A stretch of 38,252 bases of DNA from the IMG/VR virus record IMGVR_UViG_3300032893_000166, positions 1 through 38,252 of that record, one strand, 5' to 3'. Positions within the stretch are counted from its first letter, which is position 1. Every line of letters starts with the position of its first letter. This document shows positions 2,271 to 36,400 of this stretch, piece after piece. This DNA comes from a virus. A program made the position numbers and the translations under genes. The notes under the pieces were generated by a model. That model had not been told where the DNA came from and made no database searches. It saw only the letters and a program-made list of their open reading frames with translations.

Positions 2271-3185
2271 CTATGTTTCATGCTGTAAAGGTATGAGATT
2301 TTTCCAATCTTCTGGGGTAACTATTAAGCCGATATTCTCATCGCTCATAGCCCATGCTTGAGCTTCGGCCACGGTTTTACATTTTTCTACTCCTTCCATG
2401 TGGCGTTTTCTGGTCGAGGGACAATCAAAAAGGCAATAATAGGCATCTTCAGTGAAGATTTCTCCTTGAGGAAATTTATATAGTTTGTAATTCACTGGCT
2501 CGCCGGTAATATCAAACTTATTTACTTCATCAAGTAGTTCTCCTTTTGCTTCTTTAATGAAGGCATCCAAATCGCAAAACTTTGGATTGATGGCTTGAGT
2601 ACGCTGGTCTATATCCTCAATTTTCATTCGGTCGGCAAAGGAAAACTCTTTTGAGATAACTTTGTTGTAAAGTTCCTCGGTAAATCTTACTCCATTGAGG
2701 GAATAAACTCCCCAGCCATCAGGATATTTAATAGCCATTCCGTTTTCATTGTGAAGTTGGCCGCGAGCATTCCTATGTAGTGCAATAGGTCGTTCAGAAA
2801 TCCAACAGATATTTTCATGTGGTAAAAACCACCCAGCATTTTTTGCTATCTTCCAGAGACCGTTTAGTCTATTAGTTTCTTGTTCTAATTTACAAGCCTC
2901 CTTAAAGAAATCATAAAAGGCTAACCAGTTGGCCTCATGTTGACCATATCCGCTGGCCCACACGCTGGCCCCCACGCTGGCCCCCACGCTGGCCCACACG
3001 TGCGATAGGGGGGAATCACACCAAACTATTTTGGGTGTTTTTAATCCAGCAATTTTATATGCCTCTTTTATTCCTTCTTCAGCTTCTTTTCTATTGGCTC
3101 GTTCGGTCGAAAGACCAATATCAGTCCACTTTTTTATGAACTCTGGGAATCGAGCTTCCTGTTGGGGGGTGAGTTTTTCAATCAT
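2271..3185 (-). CDS. DUF6745-like protein with SVGAS microrepeats
   Basis: Start chosen at the ATG at 3185 (MIEKLTPQQEARF); a TTG 21 bases further up would overlap the preceding gene. The 304-residue protein has an N-terminal helical part, a short tandem region reading VWASVGASVGASVWAS near residue 65, then YGQHEANWLAFYDFF, a block NAGWFLPHENICWISERP, and LHNENGMAIKYPDGWGVYSLNGVRF. This combination matches phage and bacterial proteins grouped as DUF6745, in which the same SV(G/W)AS repeats occur. Function is unknown. Family assignment is from motif memory. Confidence 0.8.
   Translation of the reverse strand: MIEKLTPQQEARFPEFIKKWTDIGLSTERANRKEAEEGIKEAYKIAGLKTPKIVWCDSPLSHVWASVGASVGASVWASGYGQHEANWLAFYDFFKEACKLEQETNRLNGLWKIAKNAGWFLPHENICWISERPIALHRNARGQLHNENGMAIKYPDGWGVYSLNGVRFTEELYNKVISKEFSFADRMKIEDIDQRTQAINPKFCDLDAFIKEAKGELLDEVNKFDITGEPVNYKLYKFPQGEIFTEDAYYCLFDCPSTRKRHMEGVEKCKTVAEAQAWAMSDENIGLIVTPEDWKNLIPLQHET
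2952..3000. repeat. 12-bp coding microrepeat
   Basis: Four tandem units of the type cacgctggcccc or cacgctggccca within the DUF6745-like gene. They encode the alternating SVGAS/SVWAS residues. The unit length is a multiple of three, so changes in copy number stay in frame. Confidence 0.85.
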
Positions 3186-3198
3186 GGATATTTTTTTA

Positions 3199-3534
3199 CT
3201 AATCAATCACTTTCCGAGTGGCGATTTGAAACCAATCTTTCTCACGACGTTGAGTAAGACGATAGGTTCCTATAGGAATAACTAAATCACCTTTCAGAGA
3301 GTGTTCTGGATGAGTAGCTTTTGCTTCAGCAAGAAAGTTTACGAGATATGAACCATCGGGGCATTTAATAAGCTCAAAGTCTTTTTCTCGTTCGGCAACG
3401 ATAGTATGGTAATGATTTGTCGCTTCGCCAACAGCAAAGATAAAATCCTTGCCGTGTTTTACTTTTTCACCCACAAAGTCTTTAGAAGAAACTTCAATCA
3501 GTTGCCAATCACCATGTCTTAATACTTTTTTCAT
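3199..3534 (-). CDS. Conserved phage hypothetical protein, 111 aa
   Basis: ATG at 3534. The order of motifs is HGDWQLIEV near the N-terminus, FIFAVGEATNHYHTI in the middle (a His-rich GEATxHYH segment), ATHPEHSL, then PIGTYRLTQRREKDWF and a terminal RKVID. I recognise this as a family seen widely in phage accessory regions (a GE.TGHAH-like motif followed by a REYD-like motif) but know of no assigned function; the His cluster could bind a metal. It starts 2 bp after the stop of the ribbon-helix-helix gene, so both are likely one transcript from the promoter at 3778-3806. Confidence 0.8.
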   Translation of the reverse strand: MKKVLRHGDWQLIEVSSKDFVGEKVKHGKDFIFAVGEATNHYHTIVAEREKDFELIKCPDGSYLVNFLAEAKATHPEHSLKGDLVIPIGTYRLTQRREKDWFQIATRKVID

Positions 3535-3825: not shown

Positions 3826-4218
3826 TTATAATTTTTTCTCTAAGATTTCATACTTCTCGGCAATCGTTCTAATTTCATCAGCCGTCCATTTTTTTGGTGT
3901 CTGATAGAGTGTATTTAATTCTTGCAAAATGCCATGACCGTATTTTTTCTCTAAATAAATTGCATATTGTGAAAGATTGCCAGACTGCATACGGTTGCAG
4001 TTGAATGAACATTGTGCATTTAAGTTTCGTACGTCATACCAAAGAGCATTGCCGCCGAGCTGGCTGTTGCGTTCAGTGTTTGGAAAAAAGTGACCACAAT
4101 CTAACTGGCCATCAGTCTTGCCACAGGTAACACACTTTTTATCTCGTTTTCTCACAAACAAGGAAATGGCCCGCCAAGCTCGTAGCTTCAAAGATTTAGT
4201 GGTTTCGGGTCTAGACAC
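3826..4218 (-). CDS. ninG: NinG/Rap-family recombination protein
   Basis: The 130-residue protein carries the NinG signature: WRAISLFVRKRDKKCVTCGK, LDCGHFFP near residues 40-46, WYDVRNLNAQCSFNCNRMQSGN and YLEKKYG. The CxxC (CVTC), the DCGH segment and the QCxxxCNR segment would bind zinc. Lambda NinG (Rap) is a structure-specific nuclease acting on recombination intermediates in the Red pathway, and here it accompanies a RecB-like exonuclease and an SSB-like protein in the early operon. It lies directly downstream of a small zinc-ribbon gene. ATG at 4218. Confidence 0.9.
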   Translation of the reverse strand: MSRPETTKSLKLRAWRAISLFVRKRDKKCVTCGKTDGQLDCGHFFPNTERNSQLGGNALWYDVRNLNAQCSFNCNRMQSGNLSQYAIYLEKKYGHGILQELNTLYQTPKKWTADEIRTIAEKYEILEKKL

Positions 4219-6893: not shown

Positions 6894-7653
6894 GGGCTAC
6901 AGATTTTTGAAGGATGAACACCGCCATCAGATTTTGATTGATGAAGAATGGAAAGACCTTATTGGTATTTCTAGTGTAGTTAAAATCCTCACCAATTTCA
7001 GTCAAGCCGCCTATTATGGTTCTCGGAGAGCCTTGATGGGACTAGGTTACGATCCAAAAGACGCTCCAGAAGCTCTAAAAGGCTTTAGGAACGAAGTAAA
7101 TCGCATACTCACCCTAAACCCCGAAGAACAACAAAAAGCTCTTAAATCAGCGTATACGGCTCACGCAAAATACGCTAAAGACCGGGCTAAGAAGGGTACT
7201 GATAGCCATGAAATCTTGAATAAATGGGCACAGAAGTGTATTGAGGAAAACGAGGGAAAATTTTTGACCACAGGAAGTTTTTTGGCAGATGAACCAAAGG
7301 TGCAAAAATTTCTTGAGCTTGCTATTCCTCATATCGGAAAAGACGCACGGATAATCGCGAGTGAAAAGAAATCATATAGTGAGGAACTTTGGTTGGCTGG
7401 TATCACCGACCTCATTGTAGAAACTGCTGATGGAAAAATCGTTATTCTCGATTTCAAAGATCGGCCGGTAATCTATGAAAACGATTTACTCCAAATGGGA
7501 GGTTATTCGTTTCTTTTTCCTACTCCAATCTCATTCGTGCTTGGTGTTCCTCTTGAGGGCAAAGAAGCTCGCCCGTGGTTTGCGGTGGATAAACTACAAG
7601 AAGCCTTTAAGGGATTATTAACAGCATATAAGTTTCTTAATCAATTCAAATGA
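6883..7653 (+). CDS. PD-(D/E)XK exonuclease, RecB/Cas4-like
   Basis: 256 residues. The nuclease core is readable near the C-terminus: Glu161 (SEKKSY), GITDLI with Asp175, ILDFKD with Asp190 and Lys192, and QMGGY with Gln204 and Tyr208. An upstream GTDSHE with His109 is also typical of this RecB-like group. Phage enzymes of this kind resect double-stranded ends for single-strand annealing. The next gene encodes an SSB-like protein and NinG is in the opposite early operon, so together they form a minimal recombination set. The start ATG overlaps the previous gene; the end overlaps the next by 4 bp (ATGA). Confidence 0.85.
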   Translation: MSNKGYRFLKDEHRHQILIDEEWKDLIGISSVVKILTNFSQAAYYGSRRALMGLGYDPKDAPEALKGFRNEVNRILTLNPEEQQKALKSAYTAHAKYAKDRAKKGTDSHEILNKWAQKCIEENEGKFLTTGSFLADEPKVQKFLELAIPHIGKDARIIASEKKSYSEELWLAGITDLIVETADGKIVILDFKDRPVIYENDLLQMGGYSFLFPTPISFVLGVPLEGKEARPWFAVDKLQEAFKGLLTAYKFLNQFK

Positions 7654-8102
7654 AAACCTTAACAATTACCCAAATGGGCCAACCTAAGACAATTCAGACA
7701 AAGTTTGGCTCCAAAGAAAAGAGTTATTTGAAATGCGTGGAGTTTGGAGATAAGTACGTTAATTTCTGGGTTGGGCCGCAAACAGCTGATTGGGCTATTG
7801 GCAAAAAGGTCGAAGTCGCGGAAGTAAAAATCGAACCCTATAATGGCAAGGATTATTACAACATTGTCCTACCTAAAAAGGATGACGCTATTAAGTCGGA
7901 ACTAGCGGCCCTCCAGCATTTCATTACCGGTCAAACCGCACGAGTAGAGAAAAAACTAGACCAAATTATTCGTCACCTCGGTGGAGAAGAAAGAATAGGC
8001 TATGTCAATGGTCGGCCGGGGCCCTTCACCGAACCGCCACCAGATGAAGAACTGTGGGATGAAAAGGCGTTTAATGATAAGATAGATAATCCAAATACCT
8101 AA
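7650..8102 (+). CDS. OB-fold, probable single-strand DNA-binding protein
   Basis: The first 80 residues alternate hydrophobic strands with glycines (YLKCVEFGDKYVNFWVG, VEVAEVKIEPYNGKDYYNIVLP), as in OB-fold domains. A helix follows (KSELAALQHFITGQTARVEKKLDQIIRHL), then a Pro- and acid-rich tail (PPPDEELWDEKAF). The position directly after the exonuclease, with a 4-bp ATGA overlap, supports an SSB or annealing accessory role. Assignment rests on composition and context rather than a diagnostic motif. Confidence 0.6.
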   Translation: MKTLTITQMGQPKTIQTKFGSKEKSYLKCVEFGDKYVNFWVGPQTADWAIGKKVEVAEVKIEPYNGKDYYNIVLPKKDDAIKSELAALQHFITGQTARVEKKLDQIIRHLGGEERIGYVNGRPGPFTEPPPDEELWDEKAFNDKIDNPNT

Positions 8103-8389
8103 TGAATCTACCTCATGGAATGACCCTAGAGATTGCTGAATGTATGGGCATGGAAGTAGAACGATGGAACAATAAATCGTGTACTGCTGATTTTGGAGTA
8201 GGCGACAATTGGGCGACTCTTTATGCAATTAAGAGTGAAGAAAAAAGAAAAGGCCACGCTACCGAACTTCTAAAAGAAGCAAAGAAACACTATGAGATGA
8301 GAGGTAAAAAATTCGGCGGTAGTATTGCATTAAATGACAACATGAAAAGAATTTATAAGAAATTAGAAATAATTGAATATGATGACTAA
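8102..8389 (+). CDS. Small GNAT-like acetyltransferase
   Basis: 95 residues. NWATLYAIKSEEKRKGHATELLKEA matches GNAT motif A, with (R/K)xxGHA in the acetyl-CoA pyrophosphate loop, and the end (LNDNMKRIYKKLEI) resembles the motif B helix with the N..A...Y.K.GF pattern. It is shorter than most GNAT enzymes (about 150 aa), lacking N-terminal strands, so substrate and activity are uncertain. It overlaps the previous gene by one base. Confidence 0.65.
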   Translation: MNLPHGMTLEIAECMGMEVERWNNKSCTADFGVGDNWATLYAIKSEEKRKGHATELLKEAKKHYEMRGKKFGGSIALNDNMKRIYKKLEIIEYDD

Positions 8390-10401: not shown

Positions 10402-10428
10402 TGATTTATTATAGCACTGGTATATAAT
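10401..10428 (+). promoter_or_regulatory. Rightward promoter of a short RNA
   Basis: -35 TTGATT (10401-10406), 16-base spacer and perfect -10 TATAAT (10423-10428). The start would be near 10435, and a terminator follows at 10470-10504, leaving no room for a normal gene. Confidence 0.6.
10408..10416 (-). promoter_or_regulatory. Extended -10 promoter, leaderless
   Basis: Minus strand TGCTATAAT, followed by 6 bases and the ATG at 10401. It is back to back with the rightward promoter at 10401-10428, so the two share sequence and might exclude each other. Confidence 0.65.
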
Positions 10429-10434
10429 GAAAAT

Positions 10435-10504
10435 GCAATCATAAATGATTGTGGTGGCAAAGGGAACCGAAACCCCACTTTTAACGAGATGGGGTTTTTG
10501 TTTT
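10435..10504 (+). ncRNA. Candidate small RNA, about 70 nt
   Basis: Bounded by a promoter and an intrinsic terminator. It contains a first hairpin CAATCA (10436-10441), loop TAAA, TGATTG (10446-10451), an unpaired GTGGTGGCAAAGGGAACC stretch and the terminator hairpin. A 21-codon frame (10445-10510) exists but runs through the terminator stem, so coding is unlikely. Target or role cannot be read from the sequence. Confidence 0.5.
10470..10504 (+). terminator. Intrinsic terminator of the rightward small RNA
   Basis: AAACCCCA (10470-10477) pairs with TGGGGTTT (10490-10497), followed by a T-rich tract (TTTTTGTTTT overlapping the stem end). It faces the leftward terminator at 10508-10549. Confidence 0.8.
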
Positions 10505-10507
10505 GAA

Positions 10508-10549
10508 TAAAAAAAACTCCTCTGAACCGGAGGGTGGGGTTCAGAGGAG
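10508..10549 (-). terminator. Strong intrinsic terminator of the leftward late/RNA unit
   Basis: On the minus strand a 12-bp perfect stem, CTCCTCTGAACC with GGTTCAGAGGAG (10517-10528 / 10538-10549), is followed by eight Ts. It is the strongest terminator in the window and marks the end of leftward late transcription and of the RNA at 10508-10717. Confidence 0.92.
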
Positions 10550-10717
10550 AGAGAGGTAGTCAGTCCTTGACTGGGCCAACCGTGGCCAACGAGTGAACTG
10601 TTGATGGGCTAATGATAACCCGTATCCACGGGCAGGAGAGTTGTACAGGCTCTCATTAGTCCACCAATCTGCTGAAAGATTAACACCGTAGCTTCTATTG
10701 AGCAAGCGTGAACGGGC
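10508..10717 (-). ncRNA. Candidate structured RNA, about 210 nt
   Basis: The unit starts after an extended -10 (10724-10732) and ends at the terminator 10508-10549. Between them the bases fold into many short perfect helices: 10561-10565/10569-10573, 10574-10578/10583-10587, a three-way junction (10609-10613/10655-10659 enclosing 10619-10623/10628-10632 and 10636-10640/10650-10654), 10666-10670/10677-10681 and 10691-10694/10704-10707. Almost every segment is paired. A 64-codon TTG-started frame spans it, but its content has no protein-like character and ends in the terminator stem. No known RNA family is recognised. Confidence 0.65.
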
Positions 10718-10723
10718 AGGAAA

Positions 10724-10732
10724 AGTATAGCA
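10724..10732 (-). promoter_or_regulatory. Extended -10 promoter of the 210-nt RNA
   Basis: Minus strand TGCTATACT, partly overlapping the tail of the lysin terminator. No -35 match is seen at 16-18 bases. The same TGC extension occurs at 10408-10416. Confidence 0.55.
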
Positions 10733-10752
10733 CAAAAGCCCCTTTCGGGGCT
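10733..10752 (-). terminator. Intrinsic terminator of the lysin gene
   Basis: Minus strand AGCCCC, loop GAAA, GGGGCT, then TTTG. The stem (10737-10742/10747-10752) is GC-rich with a stable GNRA loop. The U-tract is short, so some read-through into the 210-nt RNA is plausible. Confidence 0.75.
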
Positions 10753-10792
10753 AGTGTGCTTGAAAACTATATCCGTCCGTTGAGGGGCACAT

Positions 10793-11137
10793 TTATTCTA
10801 CCGACCCATTCTTAATCCTGCAAACACGGCTGGCGGTGTAGTCGGCTAATCGGTTACGTTCTATCAGATGAAAGGCGTAGACCATATTGTCGGGCATTAT
10901 ACGGGGATTTAGGCCCATGCTTTCAGCTTCGCCGAAATGAATGTCATTTATTTGGAATAACCCCCAATCAATCGTGCCGTTCTTGTTTCGGTTGGTTGAG
11001 GTAATATCCCATCCCGATTCGCACTCTACGAGCCAATAAAGGGTCGTGGTGGAGATAGAAAGCGGATGATCGGCATAGTAATCGAATACCTCCTTTTCTA
11101 GGGCCTGATGAGGCGTGGTAGAGGCTACGGAGACCAT
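10793..11137 (-). CDS. Lytic transglycosylase-like lysin (SLT fold)
   Basis: The catalytic region reads LYWLVECESGWD, with Glu in ECESGW as the likely general acid, then IDWGLFQINDIHF, the GLFQIN segment typical of lysozyme-like transglycosylases. It would cut the peptidoglycan glycan strand during lysis. From the ATG at 11137 the protein has 114 residues and no export signal. The same frame, however, stays open upstream to a TAG near 11340 and encodes a convincing signal peptide (see 11138-11305) but has no ATG, GTG or TTG there. I give the conservative start. The gene follows the giant RNA and ends in its own terminator. Confidence 0.75.
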   Translation of the reverse strand: MVSVASTTPHQALEKEVFDYYADHPLSISTTTLYWLVECESGWDITSTNRNKNGTIDWGLFQINDIHFGEAESMGLNPRIMPDNMVYAFHLIERNRLADYTASRVCRIKNGSVE

Positions 11138-11305
11138 ATTAGGCGATTGGCTAAATTGGTCGTGAGTTTCATGAGAAACGTTGCCAATGACAACCGTATT
11201 GCCTTTTACGTCAGAGTAAGCAGTCTTGGGTCTAATATCAGCCGAATCGGTAACTATGAGAAGGAAAACAAGAAAAATAACAAGGCTTTTTAAGTATTTG
11301 ATGAT
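11138..11305 (-). other. In-frame N-terminal extension of the lysin with signal peptide
   Basis: Codons upstream of 11137 read KYLKSLVIFLVFLLIVTDSA and continue through DIRPKTAYSDVKGN into the annotated start. This is a typical signal peptide: two lysines, a 15-residue hydrophobic core, a polar end. The only near-cognate starts are ATC codons at 11305 and 11302 (and ATT further in), with AGAGA about 14 bases upstream of the first. Either initiation is non-canonical, or a base is missing or substituted in the assembly. Confidence 0.6.
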
Positions 11306-11314
11306 GGTTAAACT

Positions 11315-12133
11315 ATCTCTTGCCGTGCTAGAGATGGGCTAAATCGAGGATTCTGTGGACTATCCAATAGTTTATGTGACGAAAATCACAACCACCAGTC
11401 CTCCTCGATTTAACCCACCTCGTTCATTATTCGGTCTGCGTGATATTCGACGAGAATCTCACTAGACTTGCCTCGTGTGGTATTTGTTCACGGACTAAGA
11501 TATGGCGGTGACTCAATCATTTCATCACAACGAGGGAGGTCGATGGGCTTTTATTTTTGCAACCTTTACGCTCCCAAGCGTATCAGAAGGGGCTTGCCTG
11601 ACCGTCGGCATCTTGCTCAAAATAGGACACCATTCCCCGCATTGTACAATTTAGAATGGCTGTTTAACCCTCTGGCCTCATTCACAGTTTTGGAGGCACT
11701 TTCGTAGTGTAGATAGAATTGAATTCTTTCCCCTCGAACTTGGTTTCGGTTTGACCTTTCTCCATCCCCAATGCACTATGCCCACTACAGCGTTATTATG
11801 CGACACCATATTTTAGTCAATGAACAAGTGAGATTCCTTTGGTGAAATGCGGTCTAGCAGTACTATGCCACCTACTATATCGTGGTATCCGTTGGGAATT
11901 GGTTGGGAGTACGACTTCCGTTCTTATCCCCTTTCGATGCCTAGGGCATAACAGCATACGGACACGGAACTAGCTAGCTCCCGCCACGCCACCGCACTTC
12001 ATCAAAAGAACCTCCGAGATTCCCTCACAGGCACGATTGAATGGAGTGTCGATCTGGTTTCCCCAAAGGGAAACGAGTCGCCTTATTGATTATTCGGCGA
12101 ACACCTTCAATCGTGCCTGGCAGGGAACCTCAT
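11315..12133 (-). ncRNA. Giant ornate structured RNA, GOLLD/ROOL-like candidate
   Basis: About 815 bases without a credible gene but full of long helices. 5' domain: 12122-12131 pairs with 12016-12025 (10 bp, one G-U), enclosing 12106-12119/12028-12041 (14 perfect bp) and hairpins 12096-12100/12078-12082 and 12068-12074/12057-12063. Middle: 11976-11981/11966-11971, 11945-11949/11937-11941, 11783-11788/11704-11709, 11693-11697/11675-11679, 11654-11659/11630-11635, 11577-11582/11567-11572 and 11530-11535/11471-11476. 3' domain: 11402-11416/11336-11350 (15 bp, one G-U) enclosing a three-way junction; a last hairpin 11330-11335/11315-11320. In three helices the odd pair is G-U on the minus strand but A-C on the plus strand, fixing orientation; two weaker hairpins favour the other strand. 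Its own promoter lies at 12138-12166. GOLLD RNAs are about 800 nt, phage-borne and expressed in lytic growth; homology itself is not proven. Confidence 0.8.
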
Positions 12134-12137
12134 AGTT

Positions 12138-12166
12138 ATTTTACCCCTACTTAAAAAAGTCTACAA
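12138..12166 (-). promoter_or_regulatory. Promoter of the giant RNA
   Basis: Minus strand -35 TTGTAG (12161-12166), 17-base spacer, -10 TAAAAT (12138-12143). The start falls near 12131-12133, exactly at the first base pair of the 5' domain of the RNA, which supports both calls. Confidence 0.65.
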
Positions 12167-12186
12167 GGGCGGTACTTGCCTCATCA

Positions 12187-13029
12187 TTATGAGAACAATC
12201 TTTGTAATGCATTCACAAATATACTCCACCAGTCTTGGGGCTTCGGTGGTAGGATGTTTCGCTCAAACGTGAACGCGTCGATGATATATCCACTATCAAA
12301 GTATTCTTGAGTGATGAATTGATGGCCTCTAAATCCTATCTGGTCGCCCCACGAATTGATAAAATCTATAGAATTAAATCCGTTGACAATTCGGGCCGAT
12401 ACACAACAAACAAAATGATGCCAAAGAGGATTGGGGTTTCCTTTTTGAGGTGGTTGCGGATAGGGAGAAAGCCACGAGGGATTATTTCCGTTCTGTCCAG
12501 TGATTTCCATGATGACAAACCCATAGTCTCGTATCGCTTCGGCAAATGATTCTATATCTCTACCTACCGAAAGCGCTCTCCAGCCGGCCTTTTCAAGAGC
12601 GTTGATAACATTTGTTTGATTTTCCCATGACCTATCAGTGAGATTAGCTTCGGTTGGTGGTTGAGATGGTACAAGGGCTTCATCAGCTACCCCTTTGTTT
12701 ATGACCTGCTTTTCAATTGCTCCTGTTGTTGTCCCACCACCCGGATACACAATATCACTATAGATACTTTTAGCTGAAAGTTCTTTGTATGGTGGTTTAG
12801 AGAGGGCTAGGGCGATTGCGATAGCGTATGAAGCCGATTGTCCCCCACAGCTTGAGCTTTGGCCTTGGTCTTTAATGGGAATATCTAAACCTTTTGTACT
12901 ATCTACTCCCACTGACCAGTTAAAAGGAATAGAAGACCGTCCTACTCTCGAACGAACAATTCGCCGAATTTTTGTCTTGATGGGTGAGTGGATTGCCCCA
13001 TTGCCGTGTTTGTTTTCAGAGAGAATCAT
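12187..13029 (-). CDS. Papain-like (C1) cysteine peptidase
   Basis: 280 residues with a full C1 triad: Gln55 and Cys61 in IKDQGQSSSCGGQSASYA, His204/205 in PLWHHFVCC and Asn225 in DFINSWGDQIG. There is no signal peptide and no obvious propeptide; about 30 basic residues precede the catalytic domain (IKTKIRRIVRSRVGRSS). The C-terminal WWSIFVNALQRLF is amphipathic. The gene overlaps the holin-like gene by ATGA and lies between fibres and lysin, so a lysis role (cutting peptide cross-links or surface protein) or virion maturation are the main options. C1 enzymes are unusual as phage endolysins. Confidence 0.88.
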   Translation of the reverse strand: MILSENKHGNGAIHSPIKTKIRRIVRSRVGRSSIPFNWSVGVDSTKGLDIPIKDQGQSSSCGGQSASYAIAIALALSKPPYKELSAKSIYSDIVYPGGGTTTGAIEKQVINKGVADEALVPSQPPTEANLTDRSWENQTNVINALEKAGWRALSVGRDIESFAEAIRDYGFVIMEITGQNGNNPSWLSPYPQPPQKGNPNPLWHHFVCCVSARIVNGFNSIDFINSWGDQIGFRGHQFITQEYFDSGYIIDAFTFERNILPPKPQDWWSIFVNALQRLFS

Positions 13030-34757: not shown

Positions 34758-35120
34758 TTATATGATTGTTTTAGAAGTCGTACTTGCACCAGATTTAATC
34801 ATCTTAAATAGTTCATCCATGACATTCTGTTCCCATTCTCTAAAGATTTCAGAATTGACATGCACAACCCCCTTTTTCACTAGTGGATTAGCAATACCAT
34901 ATATTTCTGTTCTTATTACCCATCTTTGAATTGCTGGATAACTTAAATTTCTGGCAAATTTTATGAACAAATAATCTTTTATGTCGGTATGAGAATAATC
35001 AAGCAGTTTATATCGCCGCCATATTTCTATCCATGTTCCTTCTGGGACAGAATATTCTTTGGCGAATCGTTTATCTGGGTCAATATTGAATAGTTTGCTA
35101 TGTGTAATGTCAAGAATCAT
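34758..35120 (-). CDS. Hypothetical terminase-associated protein, 120 aa
   Basis: Overlaps the terminase gene by 4 bp. Helical, with FNIDPDKRFAKEYSVPEGTWIEIWRRYKLLDYSH and NLSYPAIQRWVIRTEIY, a helix-turn-helix-like look, and a Gly/Ser/Thr tail. It could be a packaging accessory; the known small-terminase candidate lies upstream instead. No named family is recognised. Confidence 0.6.
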   Translation of the reverse strand: MILDITHSKLFNIDPDKRFAKEYSVPEGTWIEIWRRYKLLDYSHTDIKDYLFIKFARNLSYPAIQRWVIRTEIYGIANPLVKKGVVHVNSEIFREWEQNVMDELFKMIKSGASTTSKTII

Positions 35121-36400
35121 TTAAAACTTTTATCTTTAGTCCTATTTTGTTCAATTCTACCCAGTAAAAATACATCAGTTCTTACCGGCTCACGAATACC
35201 CCATACTGCCAGCGCCAAACTCATCACGCGGTCATCGTGAAGACCTTCAGGAACTCTGACTTTTATCTTACCATTCTCTAAAACATATTGAAAAGATTCA
35301 AGTTCAGTGAGTAAACCTGGGTCATCAGGAATTTTTATTTTATCTTGTTCCAATAGAATTGCTAAATTGTTTAAAAGGTTTTGGCGTGAGGTTTCCGTGA
35401 ATTTAAAACCTTTTCCTTCTTCTCCACCAATATTTAATCCTCTAGATTTTAAATCTTCAATAATGGGGTCACCTATTCCTGTCGAATCTGGCCAAATTAA
35501 AGCATTGTTATATCTCCGAGCAGTCGCTTCTATTTTTGCCTTCTGTAAATTCCAATCAACCTGATTAAATCTATCTTGTGGGTATACCACAAAATAATTT
35601 AGATTAAATGGCGTAAGAACTGTCCAATCATTGTATTTTGCCAAATCTACTCCTAATTGAAAATCTCCACTATCGGGTAAGATGACATCTTTAGGATAGA
35701 TATTATTTCGCACTCGTTTAAAGAATTGAGCCGCACCATCAAGAAATTGCACTTCATATTCTTGGGAATATAGTGCAGTAGGAGTATTTCGTTTGATTTC
35801 TGCCAATTCTTCTTGAGTAAAAACTTGAGTATCTCTCACGCCTTTTACGCTCCAAAACCACAAAGGATTTTCTTTAGCCATTTCTAAAAGCTTCCAAGAA
35901 TGATTTTTGCCTTTAGGAGTAAAGACAAATGTTGCTGTTCCCCCATTTTCCATTAGAACTGGCTGAAAGATTGCCGTCCATATTTCTTCTGGTTCTTCAG
36001 AGAATTCATCAAAGACTACATCGAAAGGGTTTGTACCGCGATGTTTGTCATAATCTTCGGCGCCGATAAATCTTTGAATAACACAATTCTTGTAATAAAT
36101 CGCTAATTCGCTATCATTTTTCTTATCGATAATTTCTATCGGAACGTGGTCGTTGATTAACGCATCCCATATGACTTGTTTTGCTTGTCTATAGGTTGGT
36201 AGAACGTAATAGCATACTCCTGCTGCGTTTCGGTCTATAATTCGTCCTATTTGCTTATTTAAAGCGCTTCGAGATTTTTTAGCACGGCGATGCCAAACGA
36301 GAATCGCAAAGCGATGATTGTCCTTAAGATAATCAATAACGTAATTATCCTGTGGACGTTGGAGTTTCAGGTTGTGAGGTATCGTTATTTCCTTGGTCAT
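35117..36400 (-). CDS. terL: Large terminase (TerL), atypical Walker A
   Basis: 427 residues from the ATG at 36400. The ATPase half has a P-loop region WHRRAKKS (about 36-43), in which the glycine usual before the final K-S/T (RRxGKS/T) is replaced by Lys, and a Walker B FDVVFDEF (about 126-133). The RNase-H-like nuclease half shows LGVDLAKYNDW, IWPDSTGIGDPI and GLHDDRVMSLALAVWG with the acidic metal-binding residues. It packages DNA into the prohead with the putative small subunit upstream, which it overlaps by 56 bp. Confidence 0.92.
   Translation of the reverse strand: MTKEITIPHNLKLQRPQDNYVIDYLKDNHRFAILVWHRRAKKSRSALNKQIGRIIDRNAAGVCYYVLPTYRQAKQVIWDALINDHVPIEIIDKKNDSELAIYYKNCVIQRFIGAEDYDKHRGTNPFDVVFDEFSEEPEEIWTAIFQPVLMENGGTATFVFTPKGKNHSWKLLEMAKENPLWFWSVKGVRDTQVFTQEELAEIKRNTPTALYSQEYEVQFLDGAAQFFKRVRNNIYPKDVILPDSGDFQLGVDLAKYNDWTVLTPFNLNYFVVYPQDRFNQVDWNLQKAKIEATARRYNNALIWPDSTGIGDPIIEDLKSRGLNIGGEEGKGFKFTETSRQNLLNNLAILLEQDKIKIPDDPGLLTELESFQYVLENGKIKVRVPEGLHDDRVMSLALAVWGIREPVRTDVFLLGRIEQNRTKDKSFK

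Follow-up and report, generated by a model that had tools for sequence, protein, structure and literature searches.

Few giant structured RNAs are known and their roles are open; here we describe a new and independent one from uncultivated phages. The expression of GOLLD rises in lytic growth and its cage consists of 14 copies, ROOL forms an RNA-only homo-oligomeric cage and the pRNA of phi29 is a phage RNA built around a three-way junction. In GOLLD the 3' region is universally conserved and the 5' region is variable (PMC12286853). GOLLD and ROOL are often found near tRNA islands, the linker of GOLLD sometimes holds tRNAs and both RNAs form cages, with ROOL being described as a large ornate RNA of phages and prophages which is often located near tRNAs and whose function is unknown (PMC12286853). 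OLE is reported mostly from Bacillota extremophiles (PMC12054373).

The DNA analyzed here, referred to as the window, comprises all 38,252 nucleotides of the IMG/VR record IMGVR_UViG_3300032893_000166. It derives from a virus of bacteria and encodes a structured RNA between two genes of the lysis region. We regard it as the largest representative found of a new class of RNAs that have a 78-nt module in common. In common with GOLLD it is phage-encoded, about 800 nt long and composed of many arms, it combines a conserved with a variable region and tRNA-like elements are located beside or within some members of the class. In contrast to GOLLD, with its conserved 3' region, conservation is confined to the 78-nt tip of an arm close to the 5' end, and the GOLLD covariance model does not match. 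Like ROOL the window RNA is large, ornate and of phage origin and like OLE it is large, structured and non-coding, but it matches neither of the two models. A three-way junction is also present in the phi29 pRNA, whereas loops and size differ and an Rfam match is missing; as the terminase of the window matches a general large-terminase PHROG, packaging of the phi29 type is not indicated. A tmRNA adjoins the module in one other locus (L209), where it is a separate Rfam match, whereas in the window RNA a T-arm as in tRNAs is missing in the vicinity of the module.

Results

Fold and Genomic Context of the RNA

The intergenic gap between the two flanking genes has a length of 881 nt (11306-12186), of which 827 nt are occupied by the structured RNA (Table 1). 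Folding of the minus strand from 11300 to 12150 resulted in an MFE of -301.8 compared with -247.8 +/- 5.9 for shuffled sequences (z -9.2), and the RNA itself (11311-12137) reached -298.2, which corresponds to a z of -7.0 with 100 shuffles, none of them as low, and of -9.1 with 60 shuffles. The fold of the plus strand likewise lies well outside the shuffled range (z -6.6 to -6.8), which perfect stems would lead one to expect, and is about 22 kcal/mol weaker than that of the minus strand. No protein-like ORF was found in this region: no ORF exceeds 79 aa and the one of 79 aa has no Pfam match. The original prediction of a giant, non-coding structured phage RNA on the minus strand is therefore borne out by the range of z values from -7.0 to -9.2, the better fold of this strand and the absence of protein-like reading frames.

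Table 1. Position and properties of the structured RNA, its elements and the neighboring genes in the window.
Feature	Position	Strand	Properties
Whole structured RNA	11311..12137	-	Five arms with a total of about 827 nt; the ends are those of the closing helix and not measured RNA ends
Closing helix, 5' strand AACTAT	12132..12137	-	Pairs with 11316-11311; mean pair probability 0.92; alone too short for significance
Closing helix, 3' strand ATAGTT	11311..11316	-	Partner of 12137-12132
Arm A	12016..12131	-	24-bp stem GAGGUUCCCUGCCAGGCACGAUUGAA (12131-12106/12041-12016), pair probability 1.00; inverted repeat I1; tip is the three-way-junction module
Three-way-junction module (P1, P2, P3)	12035..12112	-	78 nt at the tip of arm A; 76.9 bits with covariance model R1, full-length match; 12 members
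P3 hairpin (GUUUCCC/GGGAAAC)	12054..12077	-	Sequence not conserved; pair probability 0.95
P2, 3' strand GGCGA	12078..12082	-	Partner 12100-12096; pairs 100% formed in 12 members, 3/5 with two-sided changes
P2 loop GAAUAAUCAAUAA	12083..12095	-	13 nt; identical in 11/12 members; GAAUAUUCAAAUAA in L221/G046
Arm B	11830..12014	-	23-bp stem (12014-11991/11853-11830), pair probability 0.99; base GAGGUUC/GAAUCUC as in arm A; interior poorly determined
Arm C	11484..11827	-	22-bp long-range stem (11827-11804/11507-11484) spanning 344 nt, pair probability 0.96; inverted repeat I2, 86% over 22 nt; large interior of low certainty
Arm D	11434..11467	-	12-bp hairpin, pair probability 0.93
Loop-like unpaired segment GAAUAAUGAACGA	11420..11432	-	Between arms D and E; 10/13 as in the module loop; direct repeat D1, 82% over 17 nt
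Arm E	11331..11421	-	20-bp stem GAGGUGGGUUAAAUCGAGGA (11421-11402/11350-11331), pair probability 0.99; inverted repeat I3; GAGGU/AUCUC base as in arms A and B
Papain-like peptidase, upstream neighbor	12187..13029	-	280 aa; Peptidase_C1 E 0.083 near full length; cathepsin K E 0.06 over 45-240; probable lysis-region gene
Lysozyme/SLT-like protein, downstream neighbor	10793..11305	-	Lys E 0.0006, SLT E 0.0045, both below Pfam cut-offs

In detail, the RNA is predicted to form one multiloop from which five arms project and which is shut by the 6-bp helix AACUAU/AUAGUU. The stems of arms A, B, C and E are firm (0.96-1.00), whereas the pairing probability is low inside arm B and in much of the interior of arm C, where windows of 300 nt do not fold better than their shuffled counterparts (z +1.1 to -1.6). 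The dozens of long helices described originally were therefore an overstatement, with about ten being firm. As single long imperfect helices of up to 29 bp also arise in shuffled sequences, it is the total energy that stands out. Arms A, B and E have the base motif 5'-GAGGU...AUCUC-3' in common, with a G-U at the fourth pair in each of them. One base motif on three long stems looks non-random. The original prediction had noted three stems with a pair that is G-U on the minus strand, and these are probably the fourth pairs of arms A, B and E, one in each arm.

None of the Rfam 15 covariance models reached its gathering score anywhere in the window, and at E values of up to 10 only chance matches were obtained over 11150-12300. 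GOLLD, ROOL, OLE, tmRNA, phi29 pRNA and group I/II introns were each without a covariance match. A tRNA or tmRNA within the window RNA was rejected, as neither the covariance models nor ARAGORN made a call and a T-arm scan was negative. Across the window, its relatives and the module loci, real Rfam matches were confined to L209 (one tmRNA, one tRNA) and L047 (two tRNAs), and the lines for miRNA, snoRNA and lncRNA are due to chance. Of the two possibilities that had been proposed, an extension of GOLLD or ROOL was not confirmed by either covariance model, and the absence of any known family, including introns and tmRNA in the RNA region, speaks for a new RNA.

An own promoter of the RNA, which had been proposed to end exactly at the first base of the 5' helix, could not be substantiated. 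The sequence TTGTAG-17-TAAAAT is a weak match with 8/12 consensus positions, which is below the 9/12 cut-off of the promoter scan, and with the normal spacing of the -10 element transcription would start near 12131 in arm A rather than where the closing helix begins. The gene upstream of the RNA, which codes for the papain-like peptidase, has homologues in G013, G060 and G070. The lysozyme-like reading frame downstream (frame 1) is open up to 11305 and has a signal-peptide-like start without ATG, GTG or TTG (codons ATC ATC AAA), which may reflect either the use of a rare start codon or a misassembly (window 11303-11335, minus strand). A second non-coding gap with a strong fold on both strands is located at 10402-10792 (z -5.8 plus, -6.6 minus). 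Elsewhere in the window, the minus strand encodes a protein of the NinG family (3826-4218, Pfam E 3.8e-15), whose name comes from a protein of phage lambda.

Identification of a Conserved Module in Other Phages

Relatives of the window phage were gathered by terminase and major capsid protein, which yielded about 120 loci with the module being present in G054 and G046 only. The route via the neighboring genes (tape measure and papain-like gene) returned no homologues among viral contigs. A DNA search with the whole RNA revealed a match of E 1.5e-5 over 32 nt in G054 (62% capsid identity), which corresponds to the hairpin loop GAAUAAUCAAUAA within a conserved helix; all other matches in the relatives were short and at chance level. 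Scanning IMG/VR for this loop together with its GGC gave 22 matches, of which roughly half were coding or unrelated and the other half non-coding with a complementary outer helix. The covariance model R1, built from six of the loop matches, recovered five others (E 1e-5 to 1e-8) and additionally G046, whose loop GAAUAUUCAAAUAA could not be caught by the pattern. In total, R1 matches the window and 11 other phage contigs of IMG/VR at an E value of about 5e-6 or better, and 6 of these 12 were not part of the training of R1. Nine members other than the window and G054 were found by the loop search.

Wider pattern scans provided no further clear members; the new loci were rejected as coding or without P1, with the exception of L308, which is again the copy of G046. 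The same reasons led to the rejection of the loop matches L200, L202, L204-L206, L208, L211, L212, L216, L217 and L219. L199, with P2 in non-coding DNA and without P1, was omitted and L314, which is non-coding with a U-A closing pair of P2, was not counted. The unpaired segment GAAUAAUGAACGA between arms D and E scores only 6.8 bits with R1 (E 1.8) and its similarity to the module loop may therefore be due to chance.

The class is defined by a P1 with GG/CC, a P2 with a loop of 13-14 nt (GAAUAWUCA(A)AUAA), a P3 hairpin and a length of about 71-82 nt, all of which are found in the window. A hairpin at the position of P3 is clear in all of the 11 folded members except L214. To judge the module as RNA we used a 12-sequence alignment, in which P1 and P2 make up the covariation count and P3 was left out. 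Two-sided changes occur in 10 of the 15 modelled pairs (P1 7/10, P2 3/5). Standard pairs account for 96.6% of the pair cells compared with 77.1% in shuffled and 29-42% in slid alignments, and on none of five covariation measures was the observed value reached by any of 500 shuffles. Fitting of the alignment to the structure favors pairing to some degree, yet it does not account for a difference as large as that from the slid control. The non-Watson-Crick cells are 13 G-U versus 1 A-C, which argues for selection of the module as RNA on its own strand, the minus strand in the window, and in most loci the module lies on the strand of the likely neighboring genes. The invariance of the loop is partly an effect of ascertainment because most members were found through the exact loop. 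Covariation in homologues, which had originally been named as a test of the helices, was thus found for the 78-nt tip of arm A, and the other helices had no detectable homologue.

The module is rare, with 12 contigs among 2.9 million, and the other 11 carriers are uncultivated phages, most of which are unrelated. No match was obtained in named phages, whether the query was the complete RNA, the module or the hairpin of the loop. The 84,980 prokaryote genomes of GTDB contain a single copy of the exact 19-mer, which is located where an ORF next to a transposase-like gene ends and which lacks P1. A terminase scan of genome contigs in search of the host found no relative. According to R1 the nearest relatives of this phage, G009, G013 and G005, lack the module, and we therefore assume that it is gained or lost often. 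Among the carriers, the major capsid protein of the window is present in G054 and G046 only; no gene is common to all carriers and the remaining sharing consists of scattered genes of low identity. The neighbors of the module in the other phages are quite different genes and not lysis genes.

Sequences Flanking the Module

Outside the module, no sequence is common to the members, and DNA searches against named phages, relatives and module loci detected no homologues, so that the other ~750 nt of the window RNA are described by single-sequence folding. P1 usually runs into a long arm whose sequence has diverged and whose pairing has been kept. The own flanks of the 12 members pair with a mean of -21.5 kcal/mol compared with -12.8 kcal/mol for flanks swapped between phages, and the own-flank pairing ranks first in six of them (window, G046, G086, G087, G090 and G094) and second in G091. 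The own-flank duplex of the window (-36.3 kcal/mol) is more stable than any of the swaps. The long arm is unclear in G054, where a long helix encloses a further domain, and in G088, G089, G092 and G093.

Further arms are present in at least four loci, namely the window, G088, G090 and G094. The arms beside the module have z values of -8.0 in sense and -3.0 in antisense orientation in G090, -5.5 in G094 and -5.4 in G088, and the small members G087 and G046 look like one capped arm. In 3 of the 12 loci the module is flanked by tRNA-like or tmRNA elements. In L209 the module (2768-2838) is followed after 8 nt by a tmRNA (2846-3307, Rfam 73.8 bits) and then by a tRNA-Tyr; this group lies between two large genes, homologues of which are adjacent in G094. 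In G054, a 20-bp helix encloses the module and a tRNA-like fold (~31025-30960 minus; ~840-900 in L218), whose T-arm (GCAGGTTCGAATCCTGC) is canonical and whose acceptor-like stem comprises 6 bp. The tRNA-like fold after the module in G088 was read by eye and is not called by ARAGORN.

Discussion

We have very little doubt that the window encodes a real structured RNA with a conserved module. As the overall best explanation we propose, as a reasonably likely reading, a non-coding RNA with several arms and a length of about 830 nt, which is encoded by the phage and would serve as scaffold and docking module for a host factor. The neighbors of the module differ from phage to phage, from which we infer a separate RNA, and an action in trans rather than in cis is quite likely. 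The RNA would be read from the minus strand together with the flanking genes and its arms would form a rigid scaffold, either open or self-assembling like ROOL and GOLLD, whereas the module with its invariant 13-nt loop would be the docking site for a partner. Because the phages with this module share no common gene, the partner is presumably encoded by the host. It would most likely be a conserved host factor, either RNA or protein, and the tRNA-like and tmRNA neighbors in three loci make the translation or tRNA machinery plausible. During infection the RNA might recruit, sequester or decoy this factor. The docking of a host factor is the more tentative part of this proposal, and we consider it slightly less likely than not. 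Whether the members represent a new class of multi-arm scaffolds of about 120-830 nt, which address a common host factor in unrelated uncultivated phages by one mobile docking module and are sometimes fused to a tRNA-like element or located beside a tmRNA, appears evenly balanced to us.

It is conceivable that the RNA acts in cis as a 5' UTR, which delays or times the translation of the lysozyme-like gene as an endolysin, and that the ribosome binds close to the closing helix. Only 5 nt separate ATAGTT (11316-11311), one strand of this helix, from the earliest possible codon (11305), a stretch AAGAGA is located just upstream, RNA and gene are on the same strand and a clear promoter or terminator of the RNA's own is not apparent. 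However, a leader of 827 nt is hardly justified by a helix of 6 bp, close relatives do without the RNA at the same place and elsewhere the module is found beside non-lysis genes and, in L209, a tmRNA, which makes a leader function unlikely. Somewhat less remote, but still rather doubtful, is an RNA-only assembly similar to ROOL and GOLLD, in which copies would associate with each other by contacts of loops or arms into a closed multimer and the module loop would be the intermolecular contact. The size, the phage origin, the closed multi-arm architecture and the tRNA-like elements recall the GOLLD and ROOL cages (PMC12286853), and the base motif shared by three arms also counts in favor of this reading. 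On the other hand, neither of the two covariance models matches, the small members G087 and G046 have the appearance of a single capped arm, and the loop is not self-complementary and has no complement at a consistent place within 800-900 nt. Pairing of the loop elsewhere in cis was rejected as well, since the complements of 6-10 nt occur at no consistent place.

A decoy or counter-defence RNA, with a module that would imitate or titrate away a host component of immunity or stress response which binds RNA, would agree with a loop that is invariant amid otherwise free sequence, and with an occurrence in unrelated phages without a shared gene, as expected for a small module spreading within the phages of one host group. 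We regard this as the least probable of the alternatives, as none of the Rfam families is similar and the exact stem-loop, found once in the GTDB genomes, touches an ORF and lacks P1; a host RNA with the same stem-loop that could be mimicked was therefore not seen. Finally, only the module might be functional and the rest might be intergenic DNA with inverted repeats, for example decayed or recombining, that folds well by chance. This would account for the restriction of homologues to the module, for the good fold of the plus strand (z -6.8) and for the interior of arm C, which locally does not fold better than shuffled sequence. It is improbable in view of the end-to-end closure, the advantage of about 22 kcal/mol for the minus strand, the base motif repeated in three arms (A, B and E), in which the G-U occupies the identical pair, and the multi-arm folds that recur beside the module in G088, G090 and G094. 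Our preferred reading of a scaffold that would dock a host factor offers a direct approach: the 78-nt conserved handle with its fixed loop can be synthesized, probed and used as bait, and the sharing of the module without a common gene makes the question of the addressed host factor directly testable.

The position after the papain-like gene may serve as a slot for structured RNAs, because G013 has another folded RNA after its papain-like gene. In this close relative, a holin-like ORF comes next to the papain-like gene and precedes an RNA of about 320 nt (35090-35405 minus, in L053), which is strongly folded, apparently unrelated and shut by a long helix ending TTCCTCCACCTTACACACATCT; the whole gap has a z of -13.2 and no Rfam match. 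Its hairpin loop begins with GAAUAAU, but this RNA was provisionally rejected as a divergent member of the class, as it reaches only 4.2 bits with R1. Strongly folded non-coding gaps were also observed in two other phages. The 1-kb gap of G011 (7353-8376 minus, in L050; z -10.3) contains a tRNA-like fold (TGGACCCT...AGCGGTTCGAATCCGCTAGGGTCCA) with an anticodon arm that looks broken and without a tRNA call by Rfam or ARAGORN, and a gap of 420 nt in G014 (6976-7395, in L062) has z values of -10.0 on the plus and -13.1 on the minus strand.
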